Assembly (NCBI RefSeq): GCF_032362555.1
Contig: NC_083507.1
Span: 4,281,001 to 4,345,000, forward strand
Length of the DNA stretch: 64,000 bases
DNA from: Amyelois transitella
Lineage: Eukaryota; Arthropoda; Insecta; Lepidoptera; Pyralidae
Direction: 5' to 3'
Each line of letters begins with the position of its first letter. Position 1 is the first letter of the stretch. The position numbers and the translations under genes were made by a program. Below the pieces are notes generated by a model, which was given only the letters and a program-made list of their open reading frames with translations, did no database searches and was not told where the DNA came from. Positions 9,305-58,000 of this stretch are shown here, one piece after another.

Positions 9305-14202
<4,898 letters not shown>

Positions 14203-14649
14203 CGTGATCGAAGGTTAGTTTTTATTTTACAACTCAGGAACTTTTATATAACTCAGGAAATATTTCAAATTGGTGAAAGAGGAAAACAAATACAAAAAAT
14301 AAAAACGAAACCACACCACAGTACAAAACTTCTATTTCTTAAAATTGGAAATGACAGTGACATCTGACAAATTTGGTTGGGACTTGGGACTTGCCGTGGG
14401 TCTTTGTCTCTTTGCTTTTACCATCGAATGTCCAATGACTTTGCTTGCTTCATAGTTAATAAAAAACCTTTGATGTGTCGAAATGTCAAACGTCTGTCAT
14501 AACAAAAACACGTGTGCTTTATACAATTTGACTTTGTGCTTTTTATTTTGGCTTTATTTTATTAAATACGTTCTGACTGATAGTTTTCCCGTAATTTATT
14601 TAATAAAGTAATCTGCAAAAACAGTGTTTTAGTACACAAACTCAAGAAC
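14203..14649. promoter_or_regulatory. Shared divergent promoter region of ATG5 and EMG1
   Basis: The two start codons are 447 bp apart and face away from each other, so both promoters must fit in this interval if the 5' UTRs are unspliced. No TATA box or clear initiator was identified. Sharing of regulatory sequence is an inference from spacing. Confidence 0.55.
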
Positions 14650-16347
14650 ATGGGTAAGAAAAGAAAACTGGCTTCCAAAGACGATGAATTTGAATATGAT
14701 CCAATACCAAGACATTTAGTTACATCACATATTAAAAAGCAAGAGAAACGCCTTATAGTTATTTTAGAAAATGCACAATTAGAGACGGTCAAGGTAAGTG
14801 AATTAAAAGAGTACCCCGAAATTATTTAATATTTTGACTATCTGTTGTGTTAATTTAGTGATTAGCATGCAGGTAAGTCCAGTGTTAAGATGGTATTCTG
14901 CAGTTTTTTTATTATTTGTTTTACTAGAAATACAATACCTTGTATACTTTTTTGGTTTTTGGAATAATGCGCAAAAAACCTTCCTCCTTTTTTCCTTATA
15001 TGAGGAATAAAGTGCTTGTATTGTGTCAGGATAAACGGAGCGCACACTGAGTCGTTTAAGATTGAGAAAGGCGTTAGTCAAGGATGTGTTGCGTCACCGA
15101 ACTGTTCAACCTATTTATGGATAGTTGTTTGACAGATTTGAAAGTGGATTAAGAATGAATGAGTTACTCGTCAAAAGTCTGCTCTATGCCAACGATCAGG
15201 TTATACTAGCTTCATCAGCAGAGTTACAGGAAAACTGTATGCATGATGCTTTGAATGAGTAAGGAATAAAAGTGAACATATCTTGATCAAATTAAGGACG
15301 TCCTGGCAAAGGGTTAGGTCAGGAGTACCGGATACTGCCGAGCTTGCATGAAGTGATATATGAATGTGGATGAAGCGAAGGAAGTATGCAGATGCGATGT
15401 GTATGTAGCAAAAAACACAGATAGTCAGATAGGGTAGCTTATTTGGGCAATTTAGGTCATTTTATTATTTTACTTTCAATTAAATAATTTTTTTCCTTTT
15501 TGTTTACAGACTGGGAATAGTTTTGAATTGTTGAACTGTGATGACCATGCCAACATACTTCGAAAAAACAACCGTGATCCCGGTACATGCCGGCCAGATA
15601 TCACTCATCAGTCTCTGTTGATGCTAATGGACTCTCCACTTAACCGTGCTGGTTTGCTGCAAGTCTATATTCACACAGAAAAGAATGTCCTTATTGAAAT
15701 AAACCCACAGACCCGAATACCAAGAACATTCAAGAGATTTGCAGGATTAATGGGTATTATCACTTAACCTGAGAGCTAAGATTGTATAAGATTTTAATTA
15801 AAGATAAAAATGTTGTATCAATCACTGTATCTAACTAGTTAGTGCCTAATAAGTGTAAAAAAGTCTTGTTGAGAAGCTTATATGTTGCTGTTTTTATTTA
15901 GATTTGTCACATTTTTTTTAAAGGAAAATTAATTTAAATCCATTAAGTATTTGGTTGTTTTATTTATTCAAATGGCAGAGGTTCTGTTTTATTTTTTATA
16001 GCTAATCATAATTTTTTTTTACAGTTCAACTACTACATAAGTTTGCAATTAGAGCATCAGATGGGCCTATGAAACTATTAAAGGTAATTAAGAATCCAGT
16101 GACACAACACCTGCCAGTCGGTGTAAAGAAGATAACAATGTCTTTTAGTTCCAAAGTTGTTCAGAATTGCCGGGAGCTAGTGCCTAAGGATGAACCCATA
16201 GTGTTAATCATTGGCGCTATGGCCCATGGGAAGGTTGAAGTGGACTATTCAGAAGATGTTATATCTATAAGCAATTATCCGTTGTCAGCAGCCTTGACTT
16301 GTGCAAAACTATGTACTGCTTTTGAAGAAGTGTGGGAGGTGGTGTAA
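14650..16347 (+). CDS. EMG1: rRNA small-subunit pseudouridine N1-methyltransferase Nep1 (3 exons, 236 aa)
   Basis: Exons are 14650-14793, 15510-15753 and 16025-16347, with GT-AG borders and matching phases. The start GAACATGGG is in good context. The product has a short basic head ([10 protein letters not shown]), then [83 protein letters not shown] and the C-terminal [20 protein letters not shown], which are nearly invariant in the SPOUT-class Nep1/Emg1 family. In eukaryotes it methylates the hypermodified 18S pseudouridine and is needed for 40S subunit biogenesis in the nucleolus. Length fits human EMG1 (244 aa). Intron 1 contains a decayed RTE reverse-transcriptase fragment. Confidence 0.97.
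15025..15415 (+). pseudogene. Decayed RTE-type LINE: reverse transcriptase remnant and 3' tail
   Basis: Conceptual translation gives [16 protein letters not shown], then, after frame breaks, [20 protein letters not shown] and [20 protein letters not shown], which are the RT motif B and motif C regions of RTE elements. The catalytic YADD has become YAND. From about 15275 the 3' tail follows (CTTGATCAAATTAAGGACGT ... GCATGAAGTGATATATGAAT). Lies in EMG1 intron 1. Clearly non-functional. Confidence 0.8.
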
Positions 16348-20570: not shown

Positions 20571-20770
20571 AATTGCTATTCAGGCGTGTCGAGGGCACGA
20601 GAAGGGGCTCGCCACAAGCTGCATTGTATGTAGATGTAAGCGTGCATGCAACGGCTTAGCTCCATGATTCTATTCGCTCGCCATATTAGGATCATGGATG
20701 TGCGTGACAAAACGAATGTGTGCGCTGCGCAGGCGCGTTGTGGCGCACGGAACGCCGACAATGGCAGAGC

Positions 20771-20786
20771 CAGACCGAGCGGCGTC
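20771..20786 (-). promoter_or_regulatory. Candidate Schnurri/Mad/Medea silencer element 1
   Basis: Minus strand GACGCC-GCTCG-GTCTG, an exact match to GRCGNC-N5-GTCTG. In Drosophila the GRCGNC half binds Mad, the GTCTG half binds Medea, and the fixed 5-bp spacer lets them recruit Schnurri for repression. Confidence 0.65.
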
Positions 20787-20817
20787 GGTGCGCAGCCCGC
20801 CACTGCGCCCGCGCCGC

Positions 20818-20833
20818 CAGACCGTTCGGCGCC
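20818..20833 (-). promoter_or_regulatory. Candidate Schnurri/Mad/Medea silencer element 2
   Basis: Minus strand GGCGCC-GAACG-GTCTG, exact consensus, 47 bp from element 1 and in the same orientation. The GGCGCC half also fits the Brinker site GGCGYY, so self-regulation is conceivable. Confidence 0.65.
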
Positions 20834-21395
20834 TACGCTCACAAAGGACTCATTGTATTCCATGCCGTCCAATTCTATACAAGGAACCCTCAGCCTCTTG
20901 GGTTTTTACATCGAAATTCCTGATAACAGAATGACACTCAAACAATGGGTTTCCGTCCTTTTATTGGCACCTTGTTTTTTGTCGCACCTTTAAATGGACC
21001 TACCTACTACATTCTTAATAAAATCAGAACCTGTTCAGATCAGCAAAAGATTTTTGCCGCATCCCAATTTAAATTTATTTATATTCCGCTGTTCGCATAG
21101 CCATTCAAGTTATTTTTTGTTATCTACAATACCCAACTGGTTTGCCGCCTATTACTTACAACAACCTGCCGTTTTGTCTTATACTTGTTCGCACAAACTG
21201 TTTTATTAATTTGATAAGTAGGTACTGTTATTTGTTCGTCATTAAAGTCATTATATAATTGAACGACATATTAAGTTTATTTATTAAATAAAGTATATGG
21301 ATAATTACCTAATATTAATTTATTAGGTAGTATGTTCCATTAAGTTTTACGCATTATACGTAGTAAATAATGAAAAAGACCATTAATCCATAATA

Positions 21396-21537
21396 ATATT
21401 ATGAATGTGAATGTGTGTTTGTATGTCCGTCTTTCACGTTGTACCATGACATATTGCATACATTGTGTGTGAGGAGTACGGAGAAGGACATAGGGTACTT
21501 TTCACGCCTGTGGAGCTGAAGGCGGAAGCAACTTAGT
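21396..21537 (+). mobile_element. Degenerate short Helitron-like element
   Basis: AATATTATGAATGTGAATGT ... GTCCGTCTTTCACG ... GAAGGCGGAAGCAACTTAGT resembles in order the 180-bp Helitron at 63110-63289, with a decayed CTAGT end. Confidence 0.45.
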
Positions 21538-22701
21538 TTTTTTTAAAAAATAGATAATAAAACAATACAAACCCTAAGATAAACTAAAATGAAATCTAAT
21601 CTTCCCTGTGTTCCTGGTATAAATTTAATTGTTTTGATAACTTTTTTGGACAATTTCAGATGAGTTGACAACGCCACGGTTTCTTTGAAGTCTGTGAAAA
21701 AGACATTTGATGGTCAAAGATGCACTCCGGGCTTCTTTCCAGAACTGTGATGATGTAACCTGGACTTACGCCGAGAGGAAGAAGAAGATATTAAATTGTA
21801 GTGGGTAGATTATTTCACCTAATTTGATGCACCTCTTGAAAACATGGATAGGTTAGGCCTACGCCATATTATATGTATAGATATGCCAAACGAGGCGCGG
21901 TGAAGTGCGGCGGACGCCCACGATGTGGTGGCGGAGGCGCGGCGGGCAGCGAGCTCAAACAGGTTTCCTCTCACCGACGACCACGCCGCGTTCACCGGTT
22001 GCTGCTTAATAACTACTACTTGTGTGAAACTCGCATTTCCACCTCACTCAACTCTTATACGTACTTACCCAACGACAGATTTACGACTTAACAGTACTAA
22101 AAATTTGATTTACCAATTTAGAATTGATTGTGTAAAAACGCTTACTTACCTTTAATGTCTATGCGACGCTTAGTTTCATCAAGTTGTTTATGACTAGGTA
22201 GGTATTCTACTGAAGATACTAGAACATCGCCGAATGGTGAGTCCTATAACATTAGTAGGTAAGTTAAATATTACCCTACCCTGATGGTTTTTAAATCACA
22301 AAAACTACATAAAATCAGTGCCTTTTCATTTCGATTCTCACGTTTTCTAGTAGGTACCTACCTCAATTCTTAGCATACCGGCTGGCAAAACAGAGTCTCG
22401 AATGCAGCTCGAATGATGTCAACTCAGCGAAATGTTATCTACATCCGCCTGTGGCGACGTCCCTGCCTGATGATATAATTGTATTGTGATTATCATGTCA
22501 TGTGATATGTGTACGTGCATTGGAGCATTCAATAAAAAGATTCGCGTAAACAACGGGCAATCGCTTGTGAAATTCCTATTGATAAGATTAGATATTCTGT
22601 GATATTGAAGGTCGATTAGTTATAGGAATCGAATCTTATCAAAGCATACAGAAATAGAAATTAACGATGACACATTGGAAAATATTATAAAGGAATCGAT
22701 C

Positions 22702-22940
22702 AATGCCGTGTGGTTCGCGGCACTTTAGAATAGGACTTCTCCATCTCTTTCCCAGTGATGTCGTATAATGTGACTTAGGGATAAGCTAATAAACTTTGAA
22801 TTCGTCTTGTAGGCGATGTGCTTGTTGTAACTTGTTGTTGTTGTTGCACTATTTGAATCTCAATTCCATCTTAAAGCCCTACAGCTGAACGTGGCCTTTC
22901 AGTCTTGTCAAGACTGTTGAGGGAAGGGATATGTGATGGA
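22702..22940 (+). mobile_element. SINE-like family A copy with TTG expansion
   Basis: Head ATGCCGTGTGGTTCGCGGCA, then diverged family sequence with a local TTGTTGTTGTTG expansion near 22830-22845, and the family 3' words CTGAACGTGGCCTTTCAGTC. Confidence 0.7.
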
Positions 22941-24344
22941 TAGAAGTGATACCTCTATGTGAGGAAATATAAAGTGCCTATTTATAAGCGAAGAATTTAC
23001 ATATGTACATATATAGGGTACGAACTTAGATTTTTATTTGGAAATTAATCGATTATTAAGTAAGTAATTTTGTAGGTGTTATTTTAACTTTCATACATAT
23101 GTAGGTAGGTACATATTATGTCTCAGTGACAAAACGTGGGTGTTGATCATTGCAAATGTTTTGCGGATCAAAATAGACGGTTGAATTGGCCGGTCATGGC
23201 AAACTGACTTGGCGCCACCACCTGGCACGCCTCCATTCTTGCACAATACCAGTGGCGCGCTCTCTTTAGGATTACAGGTTCTTAGAAATCTAATGTGTAT
23301 CTTGTGTTCAGGCAAAGTTTCGTTCTTAGCAAGTGATAATTTGTTTAGAAAGAAAAAAAAATCTGCTTATCTGTCATCTAAAAGAGAAAACATTTTATGA
23401 AAGACTGGCTAGTATAATATGTACTTAATCCATTTAAAAAATATATATGATTATTTAAGAATAATAAGCTCATTTTTATGTCAAGGTTTACCTCTTCATT
23501 CCTTGCTTGTTCCATCAGTGGAAAATGGTAAACTATCTCAGTAAAAAACGTTAATATTGTATTACAATTTCAAGTGCCGCCTAAAAGCGGAAGAAGGACT
23601 AATGATAAAGGCCCTTCCAAGCATCGTGTTTGTATCGTTGGTAGGTATTATAATGAATTTTGGCATGGTCATCTAGCGGTTGTGTAGTTTAAAGATTTAA
23701 TACGCATAATACATACGTACAGACATCATATCTATAGACAAAGGGACAGACGCGCTAAGTGACTTTGCTTTGTAAGTGATGTAGTGAAGTGATTAAGTAA
23801 CACAGTATTTCATATTGGCAAGCCAATAGCTACTTAGTTGATAACGCGTTCCGACTCACGTAGGCAATTCTATGTAATACCTAGTACCTACCTAATATTT
23901 ACTATAGCGCGATCGGTTGCTTTGCTGGCAATTCATCGTAATTGCTTATTCATGAGCAAGCAATAGCACTAATCATGTACTTGTGCGAAACGATCAAATA
24001 ACTGTTTGTTACTCACATCTGCGCATAATCAGTAGTAATCGGGCTCAATGAAACGATGCGTAGCATGCAGGCGTGTCAGTTTTATTGGGTCTTGCTTTAT
24101 GCCTTTAAAGCGAGTGCTATTGCTTTGCTAGGAAAATTTAATTGCTTAAAACTAAACATTTAAAACTTATTATTTTCCAATATGTCTTATTCATAAGTTA
24201 AATTTTTAATGTTAAAACAGTCCTCTAAATATTAAGAAGTTTATTTATTAATTGGTATTTTCTAGTGCTAGTGCACTAGGAAATGTCGATCATGATACCG
24301 AAAAGTCAATAATATTACATACTTACGTTTTTCTAGAATCCCTT

Positions 24345-24564
24345 TTACATGTTATGAAAGCAGGCTAAAGAAATGACTGGTCTCAGAAGAAAAAATAATT
24401 TTATTTGCTTTCCTTTTTATTTTGGTTGACTGGAAGAAATCGCAATTGGGATAAGTCCGGCATACATGTTCTTTAAAATACAAGTTCTGGCCGGGATTCA
24501 AACCCGGAACCAACTGTGTCACAGAACTCACAGACAAGCGCACTACCGCTGCGCCACAGAAGCC
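24345..24564 (-). mobile_element. SINE with tRNA-like head
   Basis: On the minus strand the head reads TCTGTGGCGCAGCGGTAGTG (A-box-like TGGCGCAGCGG) and, 45 bases later, GGTTCCGGGTTTGAATCCCG (B-box-like). It continues into unrelated body sequence. A true tRNA gene is unlikely, because the anticodon arm does not fold and a second copy of the same head occurs at 55197-55262 with the same kind of body. Confidence 0.65.
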
Positions 24565-25627
24565 AGAGGTAGACCAGAGAGTGGAGTAAGATGTTCACAA
24601 TGCTTTGGGTCAAAAAGTATTTGGTTCGCTTTTTATTCCGCTTCCTTTGTCATTTCTATACCTACTTACAACACAAAAGAGCAATTTCAAACATACGAGT
24701 ATGAATATCTAGATTACTGCTATCTCCGTCTATATTTAGCGGTGATATAACCAAAACAAGCGAATGTTCGCCGGTGAATGACTGCTAAATAGATTCTCAA
24801 ATATCGTGTGGTGAGTAAAGAACGTTGCGCTGAAGCCTTTGCATTGCGCACGTGACTTCTTCAGTCTTCACGCGGTTCCTTTGTTACTCACTGCTGTCAT
24901 ACATCGTCATATCTATTTACTCATGCATACCCGAACCGAACAATCAATTTGAAATGGTTTATTCAAAGGTATTCAGTACTTATGTAGAACAACTTTGCTA
25001 TATTAATTGGTCTTTCATTAAGTATTGTTTTTCATTATTTTACAAAACGGCATTTAAGTAATTTTGCCATTTATAGGTATCTAATGGTATAAAAACGTAA
25101 TGGTTAGAAACAAGCCCCATTTCAATGATATGCGCAATAACGCTCACTTATTGATAGCGTTTGACCCTCGAACCTTGTATTAGATTAGGATGGTGTTTGT
25201 TATAATGTATGACGCATTCTCATTGCAAATCGAAAACTGAAATGAGCAGATGCGAGGGCAAAAGATCTCGGTTCATGAAAAACAACCACTGCTCGAAAAA
25301 GTACTTAAAAGGACTAAAAAAATCAAATCCTAATAAACGTAGCTTACGGGTTTAAAAATATAATGAAACAGGTGAGTTTGTCCTATTGCTTTGCCTGGCT
25401 ACGAATGTCTACGAAGTTAAGTAAGTACTTGTTACAATGAAAGTTAAAAAGTTTGTAATAAGTACTATTTATTTCGAATGAGGTGAAAATGATTGAATAA
25501 ATGGTATATTATTTGTCTTCTTTTTTTAAATGTAGGTCATATTATAAAGGAATAATTTTGAGCATATTGAGGAAGTTCTTACAGAAAATAGACACGACTT
25601 GAACATTCGTACTGTAAGTAGACTGTA

Positions 25628-25697
25628 GACTATAGTAAGTAGGTATACATAATCACATCTCAAAAGATGTGATGATGTATACCTACTTATTATAGTC
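25628..25697. ncRNA. Candidate miRNA-like 70-nt hairpin
   Basis: GACTATAGTAAGTAGGTATA... pairs with ...TATACCTACTTATTATAGTC, and the inner TCACATCT/AGATGTGA closes on a CAAA loop, giving about 33 paired positions with one or two mismatches. Length and loop are like a pre-miRNA, but the pairing is nearly perfect and the arms contain the common word GTAGGTATAC, so a small inverted repeat is equally likely. Confidence 0.35.
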
Positions 25698-26614
25698 TCT
25701 CCATAATGATAAGCTATTTTATCAACGTGGTAAAGCTGAATGACATAGGTACACAAACTTTCCTTTCTCTCTGATCTACCTATAAGCGAATAAGATCATT
25801 TGTTCAAGTCTTTCCCGAATCGATGATACAAAACAAAATCTTTTTGGCCAGGTGCATGACCTTTTGACTTGCACTTGTTGTTGCATGAGGTCCTTTCTTT
25901 TGCAGATTATAGAAAGCTTTAGTATCAGACTAAACTTTTCTTTCAAAAACTTGACATAGGATTTGGGCTTTCCCTGCAGTGGTAGAAAGCTTATTCATGT
26001 CTTGAATGAGGCTCAAATTTATGTGAGCTAGTCTGTGGCGAGATGACCAGTCGCCTGCAAACCGGTTGCTAGCGACCGGACGTCTGGCCACCATCGCCTA
26101 GTGATAATGCTAATGGTATCTACTTAATTTAAATGAATCTTGGTAACATATGTATGTATATTGATTTAAAGTTTTTCTATTTAAGTAAAACTGTACAAGC
26201 GTTACATACTTATTATTTAGTAGTGATGAAAATAAAGTTGTAGAGTATGTAGTGTAGTGTTAGGAAAATTACTTCGTGTTAAAATAAATTATGTTTTTAT
26301 AATTGCATAATCCGTCCGATATTTGGTAAGAAAGAAACTCGTTATTGATCAAGAAACACGACAGAATATATCTATTCTGTCGATTGCCGCAAAAGTTTTC
26401 CGCGATTTGCACAAACAGGATGCTGATACGTTTATCTTGAGCGGGTTGGTATCGCTGACGTTAGGTACCTGACACTGACACTCGTATAGTACCTACCTAC
26501 TGGCTATCTGCATTACAAGACAAAGAGATCACTGTAAAAAATAACCTCTCCTCCCCAGGGTAGTTTTATATTGTTGTATGTAAACGTTTTGTATGAAACA
26601 ATATGGAACTATCT

Positions 26615-26692
26615 CGTCACGTCTGTATACCTTGCGGGGTAGACAGAGCCAATAGTGGTGAGAGACTGAAAGGCCACGTTCAGGTGTTCAGG
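26615..26692 (-). mobile_element. SINE-like family A fragment
   Basis: TCACGTCTGTATACCTTGCG then GGGTAGACAGAGCCAATAG and GAGACTGAAAGGCCACGTTC: the reversed 3' third of family A. Confidence 0.65.
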
Positions 26693-28531
26693 TGTTTTAC
26701 TAACCCTCAAATTTATAAACTAGATCTACCTAAAAGTAGGTATGAGATAAATTAACCAGAACAAAATGTAGGGAAATTTAATGTCTTTAATTTTTTCTCT
26801 CTTTCTTATGGTTTACTTCATTAGCACTTATAACATGAAATGTTAAGTAAGTAGTAGGTACCTACATTTTAACCAAATCAATAATTCAATTAATTTTAAA
26901 AACATTAAACTAAAAATTACATAATTGATTTTTGATTTAAAATATATAGGTATATAAAGTAACAAATAACTATATTTGTGGAGCTGCATTACAGTGGGAA
27001 TACTGTGTGGGGATACTGTATTCAGTAGATAATATTTGTTGATTGATTTCGGCTTAAAAACCCGTAGAAACAATAATTGTGTTTTTCATATTTAAAAAAA
27101 GTTTTTAATCAAAAAATAAAACAGTAATAAAGTAAATGCTAGTAATTTTTTTGATAAGTAGGTAGGTACCTTCATTAGGTAATGCAAAAAAAAATATGCT
27201 TAGGTAAACTTCTACAAAGTTCTACTCATTGAAACATTAGACCTACATTCGGGATTTTTTCTATCGACTCTATGACGAAATATTGATGTAAAAATAGTAA
27301 TGCAGTGAATCATCTAAACGACAAATTAAAAAGGCTTAATTAGCTGATGTAGGCGTCTTAAGCGAACTTCATTTTGCTTAAAATTAAACGAAGTAAGAGT
27401 ACTTATCTGCATTGTAAAAAATCAGTCGAAGTAATAATTGTCTTAACATCTTGTTAGTACCTGACTGATTACATAGTATAGATTCCATACAGTGATAATG
27501 TTGTTATGCTCAAGTCAAGTTCTAATTAAGTTTGCGATGTTCATTGATGAAAACACTATTGGTTCATTTGCTGACGCTATCAAATTAGATTATTAGAGCA
27601 CTGGAACATTTGGAACGCACAAAGTCCTTTACGTCAAGCATGAACAAGTCTAGTTAAAATTAGTACCTATCTATTCATTTAATAGAGTTTATCCCATATT
27701 TATTACTAAGCAGGTAGAAATGAATAAAATTATATCAGTATTTTGTTAAAGTAATATACAGAAGGGTCGATGCCAGACTGGCAAACAACTGTAAAAGGTG
27801 TTTAAAACCATATTACTAAAATGCTGTTTTAGTAGAATCCTGGGTTTTAAGAATAAATGGAGATGCATTGTGTAAATTGTGACATCAGAAAAAAATGTTA
27901 CATACGCCTTTAATTTAAAGTTTGAATAGTAAACCTATACCTACCTTTATAACAGTATTAATTATAATACTTATTAAAATAATCTTACAAAAGTAGAAAA
28001 GGAATAGGTATACGTAGATCCTAAAAATAAATCGTCGACCAGACACCAGGTAGTCAACAGAATTCCTTTCAACATTTTATCCTGGTTTTATCCAATTTAT
28101 GAATTTCCTACGTCAATCGAGGCTCTAACGAAGCAGCGGACAGTCCATTAAGATCCGACAGAGCCACCATTGATACAGTTATCATTGCTACGATCTCAAG
28201 AGATATATAATGTAGCTCAAACTGGTCCCCATTTGGGTGATGCTTGAAACGCACGTGTGCTTAACACTTGGCTTTGCCGTATTCCATATGCATTGAAATA
28301 TAAACTTAATTTCATTGCCTAAAGAATTCAAATTGTACAAATGTTGCCTGGATATAAGATATTTCCTTCAATAAGTGTCGGTTGACGGCGAGATGTACTT
28401 ACTACAACTGTGGGGTGTTGTTTAAAATTGTTGCTTATTCAATAGCAATAAGATTGTAGATTTGTAGTTAGGTTTGGTCGTTGGGACATTAGTGAATTTC
28501 TCGAGTGTTGTTGGTATGGCGATCAGGCAGC

Positions 28532-28547
28532 GGCGTCGATGCGTCTG
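28532..28547 (+). promoter_or_regulatory. Candidate Schnurri/Mad/Medea silencer element 3
   Basis: GGCGTC-GATGC-GTCTG, an exact consensus match. Confidence 0.65.
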
Positions 28548-28574
28548 TGCCTCTGATTAGCTCATTTTACGACC

Positions 28575-28590
28575 GGCGGCCGTTTGTCTG
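28575..28590 (+). promoter_or_regulatory. Candidate Schnurri/Mad/Medea silencer element 4
   Basis: GGCGGC-CGTTT-GTCTG, an exact consensus match, same orientation as element 3. Confidence 0.65.
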
Positions 28591-28872
28591 TTCGATATAC
28601 AGAAATATTTTATGTTCGATGCTTCCTATTCCTATGTTTCAATTGATAATATTATATGTAACAGGTTCTTAGTTTAACCACGATAGATATTTATTATATT
28701 ATACACACAGAACCTCTGCAAAAGAATAACAGTGAAATCGACTGTAGCTCGTAAGCTTTCGTGGGCCATGCTACGAGATTTTTTGCTGAATATTTATAAT
28801 TTACCAGCAAATTTTTTAGAGTTCTGTATTTTAAAGTTTTCATAGAATATTTTGTTGAAATTTTCCTTTCAA

Positions 28873-29380
28873 AATAAATAATAAATTAAAAAAAAAAACT
28901 AAAAAACTACGCTTTTATTGCTAATCAAACTAAAAAATAGAAAATAAAAATTAATGACAAAGGAATTCAGTAGTAGCAAGTCGAACAATCAGTTATAGTC
29001 AGTTGTAGTAGTAATTACCTCGGATTAAAATTATAACAAAATTAAATTTATAAACAAAACAATTTAAATCAGAGTAAAAAGCGTGGGGTGCATTTTACTT
29101 CATTTTCATAACTCTCTTGTCATAAATATATGCTAATAGAATGATTTTAATATTTACTACATCAGGCACCCCACGCTTTTTACTCTGATTTAAATTGTTT
29201 TGTTTATAAATTAAATTTTGTTATAATTTTAATCCGAGGTAATTACTACTACAACTGACTATAACTGATTGTTCGACTTGCTACTACTGAATTCCTTTGT
29301 CATTAATTTTTATTTTCTATTTTTTAGTTTGATTAGCAATAAAAGCGTAGTTTTTTAGTTTTTTTAATTTATTATTTATT
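28873..29380. repeat. Long inverted repeat, arms about 215 bp, 74-bp spacer
   Basis: The left arm 28873-29091 and right arm 29166-29380 are reverse complements with only a few differences: GCGTGGGGTGC at 29081-29091 pairs with GCACCCCACGC at 29166-29176, and CGACTTGCTACTACTGAATT on the right pairs with the left AATTCAGTAGTAGCAAGTCG. The outer 55 bp of the right arm recurs directly at 29379-29433 with small changes. No coding capacity. It is probably a fold-back element; a transcript across it would make long double-stranded RNA. Confidence 0.85.
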
Positions 29381-29586
29381 TTCTATTTTTAGTTCGATTA
29401 GCAATAAAACGGGTAGTTTTTTAGTTTTTTTATACAATTATTTTTTGGAAGTTAACACTTCTGGTACTATCTTACTAGAAAAGACTTTCGCAACCATGCG
29501 CCCATCGCCGGAGGTTTTCACAACTAACTTTCTTAAAGTTATATGTGGCCTGATTGGATTAAATCTCATAATATTCTCATCATCAT

Positions 29587-29744
29587 GATTCTTTTTAAGG
29601 CGATGGGCTTGCAACCTGTCACTATTTGAATCTCAATTCTATCTTAAAGCCAAATAGCTGAACGTGGCCTATCAGTCTTTACAAGACTGTTGGCTCTGTC
29701 TACCCCGCAAGGGATATAGACGTGATTATATGTATGTATGTATG
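29587..29744 (+). mobile_element. SINE-like family A, 5'-truncated
   Basis: Starts inside the family at GGCGATGGGCTTGCAACCTG and runs to GGATATAGACGTGATTATAT plus a GTAT tail. Confidence 0.75.
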
Positions 29745-32700
29745 ATGATTGTTAAACCCAGTTGAAAAGAATTTTATAGTGATAAATCACTGTTAATAAT
29801 ATTTTTGACTATCCAGCAAACGTAATAATTTTCGATTGTGGCCTTGCCAGGAATCAAACCACAAGATTAAGAGGCAGATTGATACAGGAACAAAAATATT
29901 TCAAACATACCTCCACTGCCTTTACAACCAGGTACGCAACAAAGTTTATCTGAAGACATCGTGGCACTTTTGTTGTAAAATCTGTCTTTCACAAAAACAA
30001 ACACAAACTTGGGACTCCTATCTCAAATAATAAGGTACTTTTTACAGGAGTCCTATCTCAAAATATCTGCACAACACAGTAAACACAGTCAGAGTCCAAT
30101 CTCAGATGATAAAATCACACGAATATCCGGAAGAACAAAGCTCGACTCAACGGAAGATTCCAAACTCCAAATAACGACAAGTTATCAGCACAAAACAAAG
30201 TGCAAATAGGTAAATACACAGGCACCGGTAAAAAACAACAGAAAGAAAGTTTACAGGTGTTCGAATCGAATTCAATCAAAACTTACTGCAAAACTTATTT
30301 GACATAAATAAACTGTCACTCATTTTCCAAACGAGTATTACAGTGTTGCTATTATAAATAGGCAAAAGATACCTAATGTTAATTCAAGAATTGCATTAAT
30401 ATGTTAAATACGTATTAAATATCGCAAAGTTCTGTAGGTAGTAACTTTATTCTTGTATTATTGTAAATTTAGTTGTTCAATTTTCATTTATTACTTTTGT
30501 TTTATTACTTATATGTATATTTTTTATTGTTTTAAAATATTCTACTAATTCTACTATTGTTTCTAATGGTAATTCTAAATGGAGCAATGCGATGAAATAA
30601 AGAAGCCTCAGGTTAATAGTAACATTATATGGAAATATATTACATCTCTTTTTGACTCATTATACGTCAGAACTTCTTGGTTTCTTGTATGGAGATTACT
30701 GGCACTGGTGCTATCTCTGTCTCTCTTACTCTCATACGAAGGATCTAAAATGAATTTATTAATCCTGGCAGTTTTAATAAGGATAATGAGAAACTCTTAT
30801 CAAAATATTGCATTGTCATCGGTCCTTGATACGTGTGCAAAGTTCCAAGTTGATTAGACGTTTAGAAATCAGTGAAAATTAAGCTCAAAGATTCCGTTAC
30901 ATACATACATACATACAACCCAAGCTAATAAAAGCGTAGTAAAAAAGTTATAAGTATTATAAGGCCCCCATGCAACAATCGTAATTTTTAAGCAATTTTA
31001 CAACAAACGTGATGATGGTACGGAACCCTTCTTGCGCGAGTTCAATTCGAACTTGGCCGGTTTTATTTACTTTTGAACTGAAGGAATGAAAAAGAGATGA
31101 ATTATTGAATTCAATGAAGTGATACTGTTTTATAATATGATAAGACTTATACTAATGTTGTAAAATTATAACTAAGTACTCGTATGTGCATACGTTTTTT
31201 ATTCGAGTAGGTAAGACAAAATATTTTGATAACTTCTCCTTATATTTATTTAATTATAAAATATATCTAGGTATGGCCTGTATGAAAAGCAATTAGAAAT
31301 AAATCTGATGATCCTTACATTAAAACTAAATTCAAATAAAATGTGAAAAACACAGTAAGTAAGTAACAGATATGTGTTTGGTTTGTTGACATATTTTGAT
31401 ACTTGACTAATAAATCACGAGAACTACCTAATTAGAGTAAGTAATTATAGTGTGGCCAAGTGTATGTATGCGACCATGAGTAGGTACTTAGCAAGTAGCA
31501 ACAAATTCAATGTGGCGTGGCACCATGCGAATGCCAGCAAAAACTCGGGCCAACTCGATGGAATATTTTGCGAACACCATGATGTCATGGTGGATTAAAT
31601 TACTGGGTACTGTGACCTTGCCTGTCAGTCTTCAACTACTCAACTAGCCAATATCAGCTACTGGCCATGGTTACTAACAAATTTTAGTTTTTATTGTAAG
31701 TACCTATCTAATTTTTCACGTGGTAGGTGTGATGGTAAAGTAATCCATTTTAATTATAAGTCATATACCTACTTCATATTTATGAACTAAAGACGTGATA
31801 TGATAATTTAAGGCAGAATTATGTACTTACATAACTTTTTATTACATAAATACTTAAGTACAAATAATTCAATTCGTGAAGAAAAAATGGATTTAACAAT
31901 AATGAGGGCGCTTACACCCAATAAAATCTCAAATTCCTATTTATGATCAGGTCATCTAACCTACTTCTTTTTGATTGAACTACATTATATTTACCTGCCT
32001 AAAAAACCGCTAGAACTCACAAAACCGGATTTACAATAAATTGATGGTGTACTCGTAGGTATTTTTAGGTACGTATCGAGAAGAATCCTTTGCATGTGAG
32101 AGAAACAAAGTACCTATACACTTGTATAAAACTATAGGTAACATTAAAAAAACTTGTTTAGTCAACTAGGTAAGTCATCGCCTGCCGGGCCTCATATTAG
32201 CATGGATTAATTTTAATCGTTTGAAAGAACCGGCTCAATTGTAGACCTGGTGATCATGTCGCGTCACATTCACACGCGATAAAAAGCTTCATTTCATACG
32301 AGTATGATCCCACAGAATGCGGAGCAATTACAAGTTCTCCACGTATCGTGTATCAAATATCGGACTCGGTCGGTGCCCTCTGGATAATAAACCACCTACG
32401 TTCACACACACTTCTTATAGCTAAAAACATTCCTATTTAAGTCTGCGTGCCTTATATGTATATGTAGGTATTATATTATTTGTATTTCTTACATTTTTTC
32501 ACCGAAACCAAAACAGGACAATTTTGTTTACCAATTGTTTTGTTTGCTATGTTCGCAGATAAAATTACTATACTCCCTAGTTCCTTCTTCTAGAAAAAAT
32601 AAATAAAAACAGTAACTCCAGCCATTTATAAAGGAGCTATAACTAAGGCATTTTATCACCAATCAGTGTTATAGTAGGCTTATAATGGTAACCATCGGGA

Positions 32701-34763
32701 GTGTTGTACTATTAACGTTGTTAACAGAGCAGTTTGGTTCTATAAGGTAAAAGCATTTCAGTCCTATAAATTAGCTCTTAGAGCGCTTACATACTTTAAT
32801 GTGTGTTCAAAGTGTATTAAGCATGCGATTATAGTACCATTAAATACTGTATACAATTTTATTGCACATTTATATATGTATTTCGTTAGCTCTAATGATG
32901 CGTTAAAATAACTATTGTACTACAATTACTATATCGAAAACTCTATTTATGTCTATCTATACTACTCTATCTATGCTTTGTGACTTTATGCTATAAAGTG
33001 ATTCCTGGTGCATTTTTAAGTAACGAATACCTACTTTAAAAGGTTCTATGTATAAGTAAGTTTTTATTACTGTCATAATAATAGCTAGTACATAACGTAA
33101 AAACCCATAAATCATTTGGCTTTGAAGCTTTGTTCGCTCCATTTTGTGTGGTCACAAGATATACTTGTAGATAACCCTTAGCTAGTTGGACCTGTTGGTA
33201 TTAAATCTTTATTTTTTTATTGCGGGGTGCTACCGTCATAAAATCATGTCTTTAAAATCTACTTTAACCTACATTGCAGAAGTTTTTGATATTGCGTTGG
33301 TCAACAGAAACCTAACAAACCTACCGTCACAAGTAGATTTTTCATTCTTCAGATTTTATTCACTTTCTTCCATTTAGTTTTGTGCTTTCGATGTATAAGG
33401 GTAGATTTACAAACTATTTAATTTTCGACGGCTCAGTCAAAATGTTATAAAAAAAAATATTTCAAACTATTTTATTTGTACGGCATTCTGTTATTGGTAA
33501 CTGTTTCTGGCTGGCCTCTAAATATGATATTGTTTTTCAGTTATTATTTGAACGAAATCACTATCGGAAGTGCCGAGTTCTCATTACAAAATCTAAAGGA
33601 ATGCAATTTAATTTAAAAGTTTTTTTTGTTCTCTTTTAATAGGTATAATAAGCAAGCGTAATTAACGATTTCCCAAAGCAGAATAAAAATATATTAACGA
33701 GTAAATATGTACTAATGCTGGTGTCCCTTGGATGATTTTCTAAATGTATACAAAATTTTTATTTCTATCATCTCAGTACAAAATGATCGTGAGAATATAG
33801 GACGAATTCCGACACCTTCAGATTAATCTGCAGGGCGAACAAACATAAGATTAACTTTTAAGATAAGGGCCACTGAAATCTCGCCGCTCAATATCAAATA
33901 AACAAGAATTTGTAACCACAATACGGTACTTCGTTATCTAGAACATAAAGTGATGCATTTTAGACTCATTATACTTACCTACATAAGCATTATAATACAT
34001 AAGGACATCCTTTAAGTAGCCTATATTACACGTAAAATTCTGTGTAAACTTCTTTGTGCTGTAATACCTACATATATTACTTAGTACCAATGCCGGATGG
34101 ATTAATATAAATATGTTAAAATCCTAGCTTGGATTTTAAATGAAGGAAGCTTTGGCAGGCCGCTAATTCGTATTTTTTTTGGTATAAAGTACCTACTTAA
34201 TCCCAGGAACGCAAAAGAATAACGATATCCCCGAATGTAAACAATAAGCAACTGGCCACATCTTCCTTTTAAATTCCCATAAGTAGATACTTACTTACCT
34301 GTTTATTTTGTGTCCAGTAATTTCGTGGAAGATCCGAGTCAGGTATAGAATTTGTGCCGGATATTAAATTTTAGTTTTGTGAAAACAAACAATTGAGAAC
34401 ACCATTTCGACATGTAGGATGTCTATTTCTCTGTAAAGTTTTAAAACACAAACAAAACTTTTGGTGAATGGTGCAAGTACATCTTTTTACGTTTACTTCA
34501 AAAGTTTAAGATTACCTAAGTACCTAACTTAAGATCTTGTTTTCCAAGGCAGTGATTAGTGGCTTAATTACACTTCACATTCTTATTGTAATTATAAGCG
34601 AAGAGGAAAAACCCACTATTTTACTTTACGATTAGGAAGGTACTTACCTAGGTACTATGATGAAATGACGTGACTGCAATGCGATGGCTTTTAAAAAAAA
34701 AACAGGGGTCAAAGCAAGATTGGTCCTTTCTCTCGAATTCTCTCTCTCTATCTCATCATCATC

Positions 34764-34826
34764 AGTATGTAGTGATGATAGTGATTATTCAACATCTCTG
34801 AATAATCACTATCATCACTACATACT
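34764..34826. repeat. Perfect 28-bp inverted repeat with 7-nt loop
   Basis: The left arm 34764-34791 (AGTATGTAGTGATGATAGTG...) is the exact reverse complement of 34799-34826, with loop ACATCTC. It follows a CT-rich run. It could be a fold-back insertion or the source of a hairpin RNA. Confidence 0.85.
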
Positions 34827-34944
34827 CGAACGCTTCCCGCATCTGTCCCTTTTTCTTTATGTGTATGTATTATGCATACAAGATCTTTAAAAACACACAA
34901 CGGATGCAGTTATTAGATCTTAGAGAAAATTTTATATGTATAAA

Positions 34945-34976
34945 TGCTACCCATACGAAGCCAGGGCGGGTCACTA
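34945..34976 (+). mobile_element. Helitron 3'-end remnant
   Basis: CATACGAAGCCAGGGCGGGT then CACTAG followed by T keeps the 3' hairpin region and CTAG terminus of the lepidopteran Helitrons. Confidence 0.5.
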
Positions 34977-35332
34977 GTTAAAAATAAATTAAAATATTAT
35001 TATTAAATTAAATTTAATATTTGCATTCTTTCATTTGCGAATAACTTTCAGCTTAACAGGATTTTATTACAATCTATGGATATGATATCATAGATATCGC
35101 AGTACTTAATAGGTACGATTTCTACACACGATGTAGAATACATATGATAAAGAAAGGTAGGTATGTAGATAAGTACTTAATAAAGCTATTGTTTGTATTT
35201 TCTTACAGATTTAACATTGCATGTTACGGAGATAGAGTTGAATTTTTACGAAAGCTCTACTTATATCAATAGCTTAGATATGCCTACCTTCAAATTTTGC
35301 TAAAGGAAATAGGTAGCTGAAAGAATATTATA

Positions 35333-35386
35333 CTTTGGCCCTGTCTACCCCGCAAGGGATAAAGACGTGACTATATGTATGTAAGT
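35333..35386 (+). mobile_element. SINE-like family A, 3' end only
   Basis: TTGGCCCTGTCTACCCCGCA then AGGGATAAAGACGTGACTAT and a GTAT tail. Confidence 0.65.
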
Positions 35387-35619
35387 ATTTTATTATTACA
35401 AAATATGGATGAAAAGTTTGCAAAGTGTAAGTTGGTCACTATTTTTACGGTCGCCGGACCCAAGACAGGCACGGCAGGCGGCGTGGCAAAAAAACTTTCC
35501 TCGAAACAGCGATGGCGCTAAGTCACTTTTCTACTTACAAAACGATATAACTACCAGAATTCTAAGCACACCTGAGACCTTTTGTCGATTAACAACTTTG
35601 GAGTTGAAATAACTTGTTG

Positions 35620-35800
35620 AAGCACGTTGCGGGCGGCGCGGGTGTGAGCGGGTGCAGGAGGGAGTTAGCGCCGCCGAGCGACGGCCTGTCTACAGCGTTG
35701 AGCCGGCGACACCCTGTCTGCCGCCGTCGGCGACGTTGACGCTTCATGCACATTCTTGTCCGCCCGCACCCCCCCACCAACACTCATGAACCGTCCGCCC
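35620..35800. promoter_or_regulatory. GC-rich brinker-proximal island with a silencer site
   Basis: A strongly GC-rich block 0.9-1.1 kb upstream of the brinker ATG. It has one exact silencer consensus (35705-35720) and, 28 bp before it, a degenerate AGCGAC-GGCCT-GTCTA (35677-35692) in the same orientation. It may be a promoter-proximal module or part of the promoter CpG island. Open frames here are a GC by-product. Confidence 0.55.
35705..35720 (+). promoter_or_regulatory. Candidate Schnurri/Mad/Medea silencer element 5
   Basis: GGCGAC-ACCCT-GTCTG, an exact consensus match 979 bp before the brinker ATG. The next bases (CCGCCG) resemble those after element 7 (CCGCGG). Confidence 0.68.
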
Positions 35801-36648
35801 GCGTTCACAAAGCGGCAACGTTGCATGCAAACTTGTTTCGTAAACGGATGTGGCAGCGACCAAGGCAGGACATGTGCTCTCTCGTTTTGTCACGAAACGG
35901 TTTATGTGTATGACAAGGATAGCAGAGGTGGCGCTACGAGCTATCGGCTCCCACTTGCGGCATTTTTTCACGCCGAGAATGAGGCGAGATTACTGACTTA
36001 AGAAACGTTTATACTGGTTAAAAAAGGTTTGAAAAATAAAATAAAATAAACTTGCCGTAAGTTACCCAGCCAAATAGAAAATATTTCCTCAATAGGAATT
36101 ATACTTAATTACACTATCACTTTTTTTATTATTGCCAAAATAGTAAATTATTAAAACTTAATAAAAATGAACTCAAATTAAAACTAAAGCTAAAACTACA
36201 TAAAAAAAGAAAAAAAAATACAAACTAAACTTTAATTTACAAATTGTACAGTCCCTGCATTGATTGATTCCTTTATTATTGATGAAATGATTGTATAATC
36301 ATCAGATTTTCAGATATTCTTGGTGTTTTTATGTTTTTTTTTTTGTTTTAAATACTTCTGGATGACGTAGTTACTCTACCGCACGAAAGGTCTTTCTGCT
36401 CTGAACGCCGTTGTATAACGGGTTACTGTAGAGTTAAATGTATTAATAAACAGACAGTTGAGATAGTTTTTTTCATGTTAAATACTGAGAAGCTTTTTGA
36501 TTGAGTACAAACATCAAAATTAACACATGCAACTTTTTTTTTATATTGACACCAATATGGACAGGGCTTTATCGGTATACGAGGCTTGCGTCTCACACTC
36601 ACGTCGGTTGGGCAGCGGCGCGCCATCATCCTCGGTACGTTGAACGAG

Positions 36649-36660
36649 CAGTCAGTTCGG
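36649..36660 (+). promoter_or_regulatory. Possible brinker initiator (TCAGT)
   Basis: GCAGTCAGTTCG contains the arthropod initiator core TCAGT (36652-36656), 43 bp before the preferred ATG, in a GC-rich stretch without a TATA box. If transcription starts here, the in-frame upstream ATG at 36501 is not transcribed. The motif is short and could be chance. Confidence 0.3.
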
Positions 36661-36698
36661 CGCCGAGAGCCGCCACGCGCACACGTTTCTATTGCAAA

Positions 36699-37388
36699 AT
36701 GGCCGCCGCCTACGCACAAACAGCCCCCACACCCTCCGACCGTCGATCAGAGGGTCGTGCTGGTTCCAGACGTATATTTCCACCACAGTTCAAATTACAA
36801 GTTCTCGAAGCATATAGACGCGATGCTCAATGTCGCGGTAATCAACGTGCCACAGCCAGGAAGTTTGGCATTCATCGTCGCCAGATTCAAAAGTGGCTGC
36901 AAGCTGAGCCCACGTTAAGAGCGGCCCTTTTACGACGAGCTCCACAACCAGCACCATCACCGCCACCCTACGCAGCTGGTTCACCAGAAAGTGCCCGATT
37001 GCCATCGCCACCGCCTGTCGTCCTTCCTACAATCGTACAAGTGCCCACGCCAATGCCAACAACCATACCAGTGCCAGTGTCAATAGCCGTCTCAACTTCA
37101 GAGCCAATAGATCTCTCTGTGCGACGGCCTTCACCTACTCCAGTACTTCAACCGAAAAATCCTTCCGCACCGGAGTCACCACGCAAGCCTTATAAACTTT
37201 TCCGGCCATACCTCCTTGGGGAAGAAGAGGATCAAAAGAGACCAGCCGTTGCTTCCCTGCCAGTAACCAGTGGCGTGCACGTGTCCGCGTTCGTGCCAGT
37301 GCAGAGTGCAGCCGGATGCGCGTTAACCGCGTGTCCCACGCCACGCTGGTGCGCGGCCATGCCTTCCTTCCCGGCTCCGCTCAGATGA
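36699..37388 (+). CDS. brk: Brinker transcriptional repressor (intronless, 229 aa)
   Basis: The start CAAAATGGCC is in strong context; the same frame is open back to an ATG at 36501, but that leader has no conserved features. Residues 23-77 form the Brinker DNA-binding domain: GSRRIFPPQFKLQVLEAYRR, RGNQRATARKFGIHRRQIQK, WLQAE. A Pro-rich linker follows, then PIDLS (136-140), the CtBP-binding motif, and KLFRPYLL (FRPY 168-171), close to the Groucho-binding FKPY of Drosophila Brinker. In Drosophila the protein binds GGCGYY and represses Dpp/BMP targets, and Dpp represses brk through Schnurri/Mad/Medea. At 229 aa it is much shorter than the roughly 700-aa fly protein, which also lacks introns. 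Candidate silencer elements surround the gene. Partner binding is inferred from motifs. Confidence 0.92.
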   Translation: MAAAYAQTAPTPSDRRSEGRAGSRRIFPPQFKLQVLEAYRRDAQCRGNQRATARKFGIHRRQIQKWLQAEPTLRAALLRRAPQPAPSPPPYAAGSPESARLPSPPPVVLPTIVQVPTPMPTTIPVPVSIAVSTSEPIDLSVRRPSPTPVLQPKNPSAPESPRKPYKLFRPYLLGEEEDQKRPAVASLPVTSGVHVSAFVPVQSAAGCALTACPTPRWCAAMPSFPAPLR

Positions 37389-37646
37389 GAGGATGCCACC
37401 GGGGCTCTGCTCCGCACCTTCTGTGATCTAGTCGCCGACGCCCGCCTGGCGCCACCAGGGGCGTAGCCCTCCATCATCGTGCCTTAACATACACGACGCC
37501 ATAGTGCATTATGCCATCGTCTTGAGATGATAGCTTATTTTTGTGTAAAGATATAAAAATGTATTTTTATAAGTGGGGCTTTTAATAAGTCCCCACATTT
37601 ATCAAGATGACATTATATTATTATGACTAATTATTATTATTACATA

Positions 37647-37652
37647 AATAAA
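37647..37652 (+). terminator. brk: Likely brinker polyadenylation signal
   Basis: AATAAA 259 bp after the stop codon, in an AT-rich stretch. It is the clearest AATAAA close to the coding end. Confidence 0.5.
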
Positions 37653-37659
37653 GAAAATT

Positions 37660-38540
37660 GTTAACTAAAACGTATTTTCATTCAAACTATCCAAGGATTT
37701 TTATGCGACAGCTTGCAATGAAGCAGGTAGCGCCGGCGCCACGTAGCCCCGTATTTCCTTACCTGGTTTTAATCCCCGATATTTCTTCAACCATTTCGGG
37801 GTACTTACATTCACGATGATGTTTAATTATCTTTTAAAAAAAGAACATTCAAGTTTGGAAAAAAGTAGGATTATAATAATTATTAAGGCAAAACTACAAA
37901 GAGGAAAGATTTGTATTTGTTGTTTCTTTTTGTAATAAATGACATCATAAACAAGTTAATTTACCTACATATGAATTTCGACTAAATATAGAGACAGACA
38001 AACCTTCAACGTAGGCTACGTTCTGTTTGGAAATTCCTGCACAAAAGCTAGTAGGTACTTACCTAGGTAGTTTTTAAAAACAGTACTTTGAATGATTTAA
38101 GTTATTTTTTTTCTAACATGTTATTTAAATATCATTCAAGTATAAATAAAGTGTTCAAAACAAGACCATATAATCAATTTATCGAAAAATAAATCGGAAT
38201 TGATAAGTCAATCAGATAATTAATCAATATAAGACAATATTTTTTACGGAAATAAAGTAGCAATGAGTGAATGATGAATTTTCTGTTGGAAAGACGCACA
38301 TATTTTTTAAAAGTTACATGTAATGTTTGGGAGTAAACCTACATAACTATGTATTTATCGCGAATATTAATTGAAATATGATAATACATTTAAAAAGAGC
38401 TCACTGCAAAAATGCTGACAAGATTTTGGCAATGGTATCAAGTGTCAATGCCGGCACAATTACTATAAATATCAATATATCTACATACTTCATACAATGA
38501 AGTAGTTATAAAAACTGGCAAAGAAAGTAGTTTACTGAAT
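37660..38540. other. Gene-free region 3' of brinker
   Basis: AT-rich, with no repeat or gene recognised. Confidence 0.45.
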
Positions 38541-38564
38541 TTATGTGTGTTGTGGGGAATAAAT

Positions 38565-38580
38565 GGCGTCGCGCAGTCTG
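38565..38580 (+). promoter_or_regulatory. Candidate Schnurri/Mad/Medea silencer element 6
   Basis: GGCGTC-GCGCA-GTCTG, an exact consensus match. Confidence 0.66.
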
Positions 38581-38592
38581 GAAAGGGCTGGT

Positions 38593-38608
38593 GGCGACGT
38601 GGTGTCTG
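38593..38608 (+). promoter_or_regulatory. Candidate Schnurri/Mad/Medea silencer element 7
   Basis: GGCGAC-GTGGT-GTCTG, an exact consensus match; same Mad half-site as element 5. Confidence 0.66.
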
Positions 38609-44299: not shown

Positions 44300-44530
44300 G
44301 CAATTTGCTGCGCGGGTGTTGCGGGGCAGGGGAGGCCATACTCTGCAGGGGCCCAGCCCGAGGCTCAGCGACAAGTTGTCTGGCAGGGCCGGCGGCGCCC
44401 GCGCCTTCGCCCCCCTCCCATCTCTCCCCTGTGAGATTATTATGGGCTTGACGCCGCTGCTGACTTGCGCCCTGGCCCCTTCGCCCCACTCCACCTCGCC
44501 GCGACGCTGCGCCTGCGCCACCGCTTCTTG
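44300..44530. promoter_or_regulatory. GC-rich island
   Basis: A GC- and CpG-rich block with C-rich tracts. It contains AGCGAC-AAGTT-GTCTG (44367-44382), one mismatch from the silencer consensus. It could be a promoter of an unseen transcript or a regulatory module. Open frames on both strands follow from the composition. Confidence 0.35.
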
Positions 44531-56874: not shown

Positions 56875-57300
56875 TTTGTTAGTAAAAAAAATAGGTCCGT
56901 ATTGTAATGTTCAACTCAATAGTTCTACTCAAATTAATTTTTGACCGAAGTTGGAGACCGAGATTTCTGTTTATTTTCGTCAATTCTTTTAACTAATTTA
57001 CCGGAATGAAGTAATACAAAATGTGGCTCTGTTACAGTTTGTTTGACAGTGATTGACTTATAAATATTTTTTTGCATTTCTGCCTATAGTTAGACAACCA
57101 ATATAACACTAAATCTATGTAAGCCAGCAAAATAGTAAGTAATTTGCGCACCGTCTGCGGGCCAACTGCCTAACGACGAATTAAACGATTCTTCTATCGC
57201 ACATTAAGTCTATAATTTGTAGACAATTGACGTGCCCCACGGTTTTATTTTAGTCTAGTCTATGCATATGTTTATAATTCCCACGACTGTATCTATTTTA

Positions 57301-57486
57301 TTATTTTTTGGTTTTTAGTACATTTATATTAAACATTGCAATGTATGTTTAACATAAAACCGTTTAACTTAAAAAGTTTTTTTACCTATTTTTTTATTTT
57401 TTGGTTTTTAGTACATTTATATTAAACATTGTAATGTATGTTTAACATAAAACCGTTTAACTTAAAAAGTTTTTTTACCTATTTTT
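57301..57486. repeat. Tandem duplication, 2 copies of 93 bp
   Basis: The unit starts TTATTTTTTGGTTTTTAGTA and contains the partial palindrome ATTAAACATTGCAATGTATG. The two copies differ at very few positions (for example GCAATG/GTAATG), so the duplication is recent. Confidence 0.9.
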
Positions 57487-57489
57487 ATT

Positions 57490-58000
57490 TGTTTTTGTAA
57501 CGAATAAACTCAAAAACTACTGGACCGATTTGAATGAAATTTGGCACAGGGATAGACTTAACCTTCAGGAGTAACATAGGCTACATTTTATCCCACTGCT
57601 TAGATTTTAATTTTGAATAGTAAATTGTATTCTACTTGTTGAGACCTTTCATTTGATACCCATGTTGATGGGATTGATAAAATCTAAGTTATCCGCCATT
57701 TTGTAGAGGCCGCCATCTTGGATTTCAATTTTTTATAGTATATTGTATTCTGCTTGTTGAGCCCTTTCATTTGATACCCATATTGATGGGATTAATGAAA
57801 CCTAAATTATCCGCCATTTTGTAACGGCGGCCATCTTGAATTTATAATGATAATGAATAAACATAATTATATTGTCACCAAAATCCAAAGTGTATACAAA
57901 ATTTCAGATTAATCGGTTGACAGGAAGAGGGTGAAATTTGAATTACTAAATTTGACCCAAGAATAAATAAAACAAACGGGGTGAGCTAAATAAAACCGTT
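57490..58000. mobile_element. Dispersed repeat with Helitron-like internal sequence
   Basis: CTCAAAAACTACTGGACCGA, then ATTTGAATGAAATTTGGCAC and ATAGGCTACATTTTATCCC are words shared with many lepidopteran non-autonomous elements. Borders are not clear. Confidence 0.5.
57603..57838. repeat. Tandem duplication, 2 diverged copies of 118 bp
   Basis: The unit carries GTATTCTACTTGTTGAGACC, CCCATGTTGATGGGATTGAT and TATCCGCCATTTTGTAGAGG; the second copy begins at 57721 with about 10-15% differences. Confidence 0.85.

Follow-up and report, generated by a model that had tools for sequence, protein, structure and literature searches.

Seven exact Schnurri/Mad/Medea silencer consensus sites surround brinker in the moth Amyelois transitella

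We analysed a 64-kb window of the Amyelois transitella genome (contig C3, NC_083507.1, positions 4281001–4345000; genome 327,366,114 bp in 33 contigs) that contains the gene brinker (brk). The window was scanned on both strands for exact matches to the 16-base silencer element (SE) pattern GRCGNC-N5-GTCTG. Seven matches were found and no more, all of them around brk, and both half-sites are exact in 7/7. By analogy with Drosophila, these sites are very probably the Mad/Medea/Schnurri silencer elements by which Dpp represses moth brk.

Seven silencer consensus sites surround brinker

The seven sites extend over 17.8 kb as three same-strand tandem pairs and one single (Table 1). All lie inside the gene-poor stretch between EMG1/Atg5 and MED18. 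A preliminary description of this DNA, made by inspection, had listed seven exact matches; the motif scan reproduced each of them in place and strand and bore out, again on both strands, that the remainder of the window holds none. That description placed the array from 16 kb upstream to 2 kb downstream of the brk start. The sites do flank the gene, and the distances can be given more exactly: relative to the ATG at 36699 the four places are −15.9, −8.1, −1.0 and +1.9 kb, the last being 1.2 kb past the stop codon. A T stands at position 15 in 7/7 sites, this position belonging to the pattern searched, and the spacer letters and flanks vary among the seven.

The 601-bp islands around the four places were also compared for shared words. 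There is no 8-mer common to all four that could serve as a companion motif; eight 8-mers are common to three of the four, each with 7–23 copies in the window. A 13-mer, CGTGACAAAACGA, occurs on opposite strands at 20703–20715 and 35882–35894, within the distal and proximal SE islands. In each island it flanks the SEs on the side of their GTCTG halves, and the window has no third copy.

Number and spacing of the sites exceed chance expectation

The strongest control is the spacer series, which is internal to the window. With both half-sites fixed, the N5 spacer gives seven matches, and the other 100 spacers (0–100) give 16 in total with a maximum of two each; at least three of those 16 (spacers 33, 48 and 52) join a half of one site to a half of its partner in the pair. 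In a word scan of the window, all 5-mers that follow GRCGNC at spacers of 0–30 were counted, and N5-GTCTG was the commonest of the 31,744 combinations of spacer and 5-mer (seven occurrences; runner-up, six). The spacer series illustrates how a silencer code of this kind can be picked out from one genome, with no alignment needed.

Across the whole genome the pattern occurs 542 times (233 + 309), a rate of 0.106 per 64 kb. The preliminary description had expected 0.24 per 64 kb, which is arithmetically right for equal base use and about twice the real rate. Its further statement that the expectation stays far below one when GC-rich islands are allowed for agrees with the models of local composition: order-1 Markov models in blocks of 200–1000 bp expect 0.03–0.044 sites, and block shuffles (60 each) had means of 0.08 for 200 bp, with a largest value of 2, and 0 for 500 bp. 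Further block shuffles (100 each) had means of 0.04 and 0.03. Dinucleotide shuffles of the whole window (n=100) gave a mean of 0.04 and a largest value of 1, against seven observed. Hence the base composition of the islands does not account for the seven sites. The genome-wide density, which is that of the whole genome, with GC-rich islands handled by the local models of the window, leaves the proposal of a brk-associated array standing.

The Poisson probability of seven sites in 64 kb is 2.7e-11, or 1.4e-7 after multiplication by the number of windows. For seven in 17,838 bp it is 3.8e-15, a generous figure since the length of the stretch was picked from the data. Given the genome rate and this probability of about 4e-15, seven sites in 17.8 kb are not due to chance. 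No exact site occurs in 50 kb of flanking DNA, and the nearest others on the contig are at 4,013,406 and 4,895,592, about 0.29 and 0.58 Mb away. We also ranked clusters among the first 100 of the 542 sites, which cover 57.6 of 327.4 Mb. The brk locus holds seven of these 100, and the remaining 93 reach at most two per 17.8 kb and three per 64 kb. Fourteen loci have two or three sites within ~7–25 kb; in eight of these the open reading frames were viewed by eye, and some looked transposon-like.

The gene within the array is brinker

The open frame at 36501–37388 contains the brk coding sequence. Its product carries the Brinker DNA-binding domain (BrkDBD PF09607, E 3.6e-27, Pfam), and a structure search matched the Drosophila Brinker domain (2glo, E 5.1e-23). 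A protein search returned 131 proteins, that of the window included, of which 120 were listed. The nearest named relative among the matches listed is from Plodia interpunctella (87%), the named organisms among the first 50 listed are Lepidoptera, and some of the proteins are called Brinker by their sources. We aligned 13 lepidopteran sequences picked from these matches, the window protein among them, and the DNA-binding domain, EP[IM]DLS and KLFRP are kept in 13/13. We take EPIDLS to be a CtBP-type motif and KPYKLFRPYLL to be presumably of the Groucho type. Judged by its domain, structural match and lepidopteran relatives, the gene at 36699–37388 is brinker, as had been proposed.

Table 1. Probable silencer element sites, brinker, degenerate candidates and neighbouring genes, in window coordinates
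Feature	Position	Strand	Sequence	Remarks
Silencer element	20771..20786	-	GACGCCGCTCGGTCTG	Exact motif match; distal pair
Silencer element	20818..20833	-	GGCGCCGAACGGTCTG	Exact motif match; distal pair, 47 bp start to start, same strand
Silencer element	28532..28547	+	GGCGTCGATGCGTCTG	Exact motif match; middle pair
Silencer element	28575..28590	+	GGCGGCCGTTTGTCTG	Exact motif match; middle pair, 43 bp start to start, same strand
Silencer element	35705..35720	+	GGCGACACCCTGTCTG	Exact motif match; single, ~1 kb upstream of ATG, GC-rich island
Silencer element	38565..38580	+	GGCGTCGCGCAGTCTG	Exact motif match; downstream pair, 1.2 kb after stop codon
Silencer element	38593..38608	+	GGCGACGTGGTGTCTG	Exact motif match; downstream pair, 28 bp start to start, same strand
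brinker coding sequence	36699..37388	+		One open frame, 229 residues; N-terminal Brinker DNA-binding domain, EPIDLS, KPYKLFRPYLL
Weak candidate degenerate site	36649..36664	-	GGCGCCGAACTGACTG	34 bp before ATG; fits relaxed fly consensus GNCGNC-N5-GNCTN
Weak candidate degenerate site	26071..26086	+	AGCGACCGGACGTCTG	Sole mismatch at position 1, like fly SEm1
Atg5 exons (ATG5_UblA)	13260..14214	-		Pfam; left neighbour
EMG1/NEP1 methyltransferase exons	14584..16344	+		Left edge of gene-poor stretch; lies between Atg5 and brk
MED18 (Mediator subunit) exons	54910..56495	-		Right edge of gene-poor stretch
RRP4 exons	61123-62208	+		Right of MED18
Torsin exon	3573-3899	+		

Alternative explanations for the sites

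Islands rich in GC and CpG around a developmental gene might yield such matches by chance. Three of the seven sites do lie in islands of 51–54% GC, and the ratio of observed to expected CpG around the sites is 0.94–1.36, against 0.92 for the window. Yet the middle and downstream pairs sit in sequence of 38–39% GC, models of local composition expect no more than 0.044 sites and block shuffles 0–0.08, the 100 other spacers yield only their 16 matches, and the genome rate is low. Shuffles, local Markov models, spacer series and word scan together rule out chance and base composition, an explanation to which we assign a negligible probability. Scarcely more probable is that the motif happened to lie within a mobile element or a duplicated segment and was copied along with it, in which case the seven would not be independent. 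The distal pair does form a 16-base repeat, 88% identical, and islands 1 and 3 share the 13-base word CGTGACAAAACGA. The likeness ends with the motif, however: a repeat search within four regions of 0.9–1.1 kb found no longer direct repeat joining the members of a pair, and flanks and spacers differ among the seven.

The sites might instead be Smad sites of another kind, either activating Mad/Medea sites or Brinker autoregulatory sites (GGCGYY), and not Schnurri silencers. The Mad half overlaps the Brinker word in 3/7 sites (GGCGCC or GGCGTC), and a loosened form of the activating element, GGCGCCRNNNNGNCV, has two matches in the window, at 37439(-) and 37735(+). Both of these are away from all seven sites, however, none of which belongs to the activating element. 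In the excerpted text of PMC4161316 that element is arranged differently, as GGCGCCA-N4-GNCV. Brinker sites have no need of a GTCTG five bases off, and the T at position 15, which according to excerpts of the fly study allows Schnurri (Shn) to bind (PMC3738585), is kept throughout. We regard Smad sites of another kind as improbable, and Schnurri silencer elements as the better account of the array.

Relation to the silencer elements of the fly

In excerpts of the fly study (PMC3738585), the published silencer consensus consists of two half-sites with a 5-bp spacer and a T at position 15 that is needed for Shn binding; the moth sites match this consensus, in keeping with the premise of the preliminary description that fly Dpp represses brk through a bipartite element. 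The same excerpts count ten exact SEs at fly brk and 13 under a relaxed consensus, report that Mad, Medea and Shn bind all 13 predicted SEs in gel shifts and that brk expression expands when SEs are mutated, and state that one functional SE is unable to repress the enhancers spread over the brk locus (PMC3738585). Recruitment of Shn is decided by spacing, according to parts of two further papers (PMC10847725; PMC4161316).

If the moth sites work as their fly counterparts do, phosphorylated Mad would occupy GRCGNC where Dpp is active, with Medea on the GTCTG that follows after five bases. Held at this spacing, the Smad trimer would recruit Schnurri, which in turn would repress nearby brk enhancers and the brk promoter. 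As a result, brk would be on only where Dpp is low, with an expression opposite to that of Dpp and an output that is presumably graded, as in the fly. Because SEs are short-range in the fly, each of the four places probably silences an adjoining enhancer module, and paired sites may raise local occupancy. What the moth sequence itself establishes is the motif, its spacing, the number and placement of the sites and the identity of the gene; the rest of this scheme, from binding and repression to the short range, the graded output and the part played by pairs, is carried over from the fly by analogy.

Within the excerpted text of PMC3738585, the moth array resembles that of Drosophila melanogaster brk in its 16-base consensus, 5-bp spacer, dispersed copies and nearby Atg5. 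It differs in the number of sites (seven exact, where the fly has ten exact and 13 under the relaxed consensus), in its layout of three tandem same-strand pairs and one single over 17.8 kb, and in being known from sequence alone. The brk loci of other insects are described there as having significantly fewer SEs than that of the fly, with Rebeiz et al. 2012 cited (PMC3738585), whereas the moth has seven exact sites. The Drosophila msh and ind enhancers use the same Mad/Medea/Schnurri complex on SE sites, as given in a part of PMC4161316; the msh element lacks a perfect consensus SE and has two functional SE-like sites, whereas at moth brk exact sites are arrayed across the locus.

Among the papers listed by our literature searches, judged by their listings, we identified none that describes SEs at a lepidopteran brk; such an account may well exist. 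Rebeiz et al. 2012 reportedly found one conserved SE and a 'Downstream Element' upstream of insect brk genes. The preliminary description was right that the moth locus appears to keep the fly logic in a dispersed array, but overstated the surprise of it: dispersed SEs are known in the fly, and brk SEs have been cited for other insects. The moth array is an unusually clean example of a silencer already known at insect brk. According to an excerpt of PMC12820215, eyespots of the butterfly Bicyclus show higher expression of Mad6, Optix and omb than control tissue and lower expression of brk; this is consistent with silencing of brk by Dpp but does not test it.

The array provides evidence, directly at the sequence level, that Lepidoptera share with the fly the bipartite Smad/Schnurri code behind the circuit through which Dpp silences brinker and so opens its target genes. 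The last common ancestor of Lepidoptera and the fly is roughly 280–300 million years old. Seven exact sites are now available for editing tests in moths and butterflies.

Points against a silencer function, and degenerate sites

Several observations weigh against silencing of moth brk through these sites. The reversed pattern, used as a control, occurs 682 times in the genome (351 + 331) and is commoner than the motif. The motif is hence not over-represented genome-wide, and a lone match is no proof of function. In excerpts of the fly study, some Dpp-dependent repression persists with all predicted SEs mutated, and SE13 apparently makes no contribution in the wing disc (PMC3738585); not every site need therefore act. 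Looser matches, a class that matters in the fly, also lack the spacer preference of the exact sites in the window. With one mismatch allowed there are six sites at N5, the remaining spacers between 0 and 30 having 0–10 each (N2, 10; N6, 8; N26, 7), and the relaxed consensus gives nine at N5, seven of which are the exact sites, against 1–8 at spacers 0–15.

The six additional N5 sites start at 26071, 28040, 36649, 42246, 44367 and 47490. Their number exceeds that in block shuffles (mean 1.3–1.4; six reached in 1/200). Since one-mismatch sites are equally common at several other spacers, we do not claim a wider array of degenerate sites, and for want of a spacer preference 36649(-) and 26071(+) are put forward as weak candidates (Table 1). 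Degenerate variants that these two fit formed a complex in fly gel shifts, according to excerpts of PMC3738585. At 44367 and 47490, as at 26071, the mismatch falls on position 1. All six one-mismatch sites fall between 26.0 and 47.5 kb, around brk.

A second tandem pair on contig C4

The 93 listed sites away from brk include one pair less than 100 bp apart (0.015 expected), at C4:3946596 and 3946616. Like the pairs at brk it is a tandem, 20 bp start to start (C4:3946596-3946631; L014:5596-5631). The pair is found ~73–108 bp upstream of the start codon of a minus-strand gene for an uncharacterised protein (L014:4660-5523). The predicted protein, secreted as judged by eye, has 43 matches, from Lepidoptera wherever the organism is named, and a Pfam scan of it found no match. 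This could be a second SE-controlled gene, or the pair could be a chance occurrence in a GC-rich 5′ end. Since the pair was found among the first 100 of 542 sites, other pairs may exist.

A tentative idea, which we think rather unlikely to be correct, is that the working unit in the moth lineage is a tandem same-strand SE pair 28–47 bp apart, one per brk enhancer module, and that this unit was also taken up by the Lepidoptera-only gene on C4. If so, that gene would be a new direct Dpp-repressed target confined to moths and butterflies.

The neighbourhood of brinker

Between ~16.4 and 54.9 kb brk is the sole gene recognised, open reading frames of at least 70 residues having been listed and brk and six others scanned against Pfam; the six others had no match. 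Left of this stretch, the first open reading frame of EMG1 (14584–14826) has no Pfam match and was assigned by position. With RRP4 and the Torsin exon, Table 1 includes every gene recognised in the window. A scan of the window against Rfam at gathering scores gave 0 matches.

Atg5 adjoins brk in the fly too, and the same excerpts of PMC3738585 mention an SE-like site in an atg5 intron, downstream of brk. The occurrence of Atg5 near brk in both moth and fly, for which the support is a single passage and a single Pfam match, suggests that the brk–Atg5 neighbourhood may be old, and there may be an old linkage of Atg5, as a bystander, to the regulatory domain of brk.

Also left of the brk stretch, an open frame of 530 residues at 10048–11640 (+) carries a reverse transcriptase domain (PF00078) and is probably a piece of a retrotransposon. 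Right of MED18 there are two short tandem duplications, at 57293–57486 and 57599–57843, with units of 93 bp and 118 bp in approximately two copies each.

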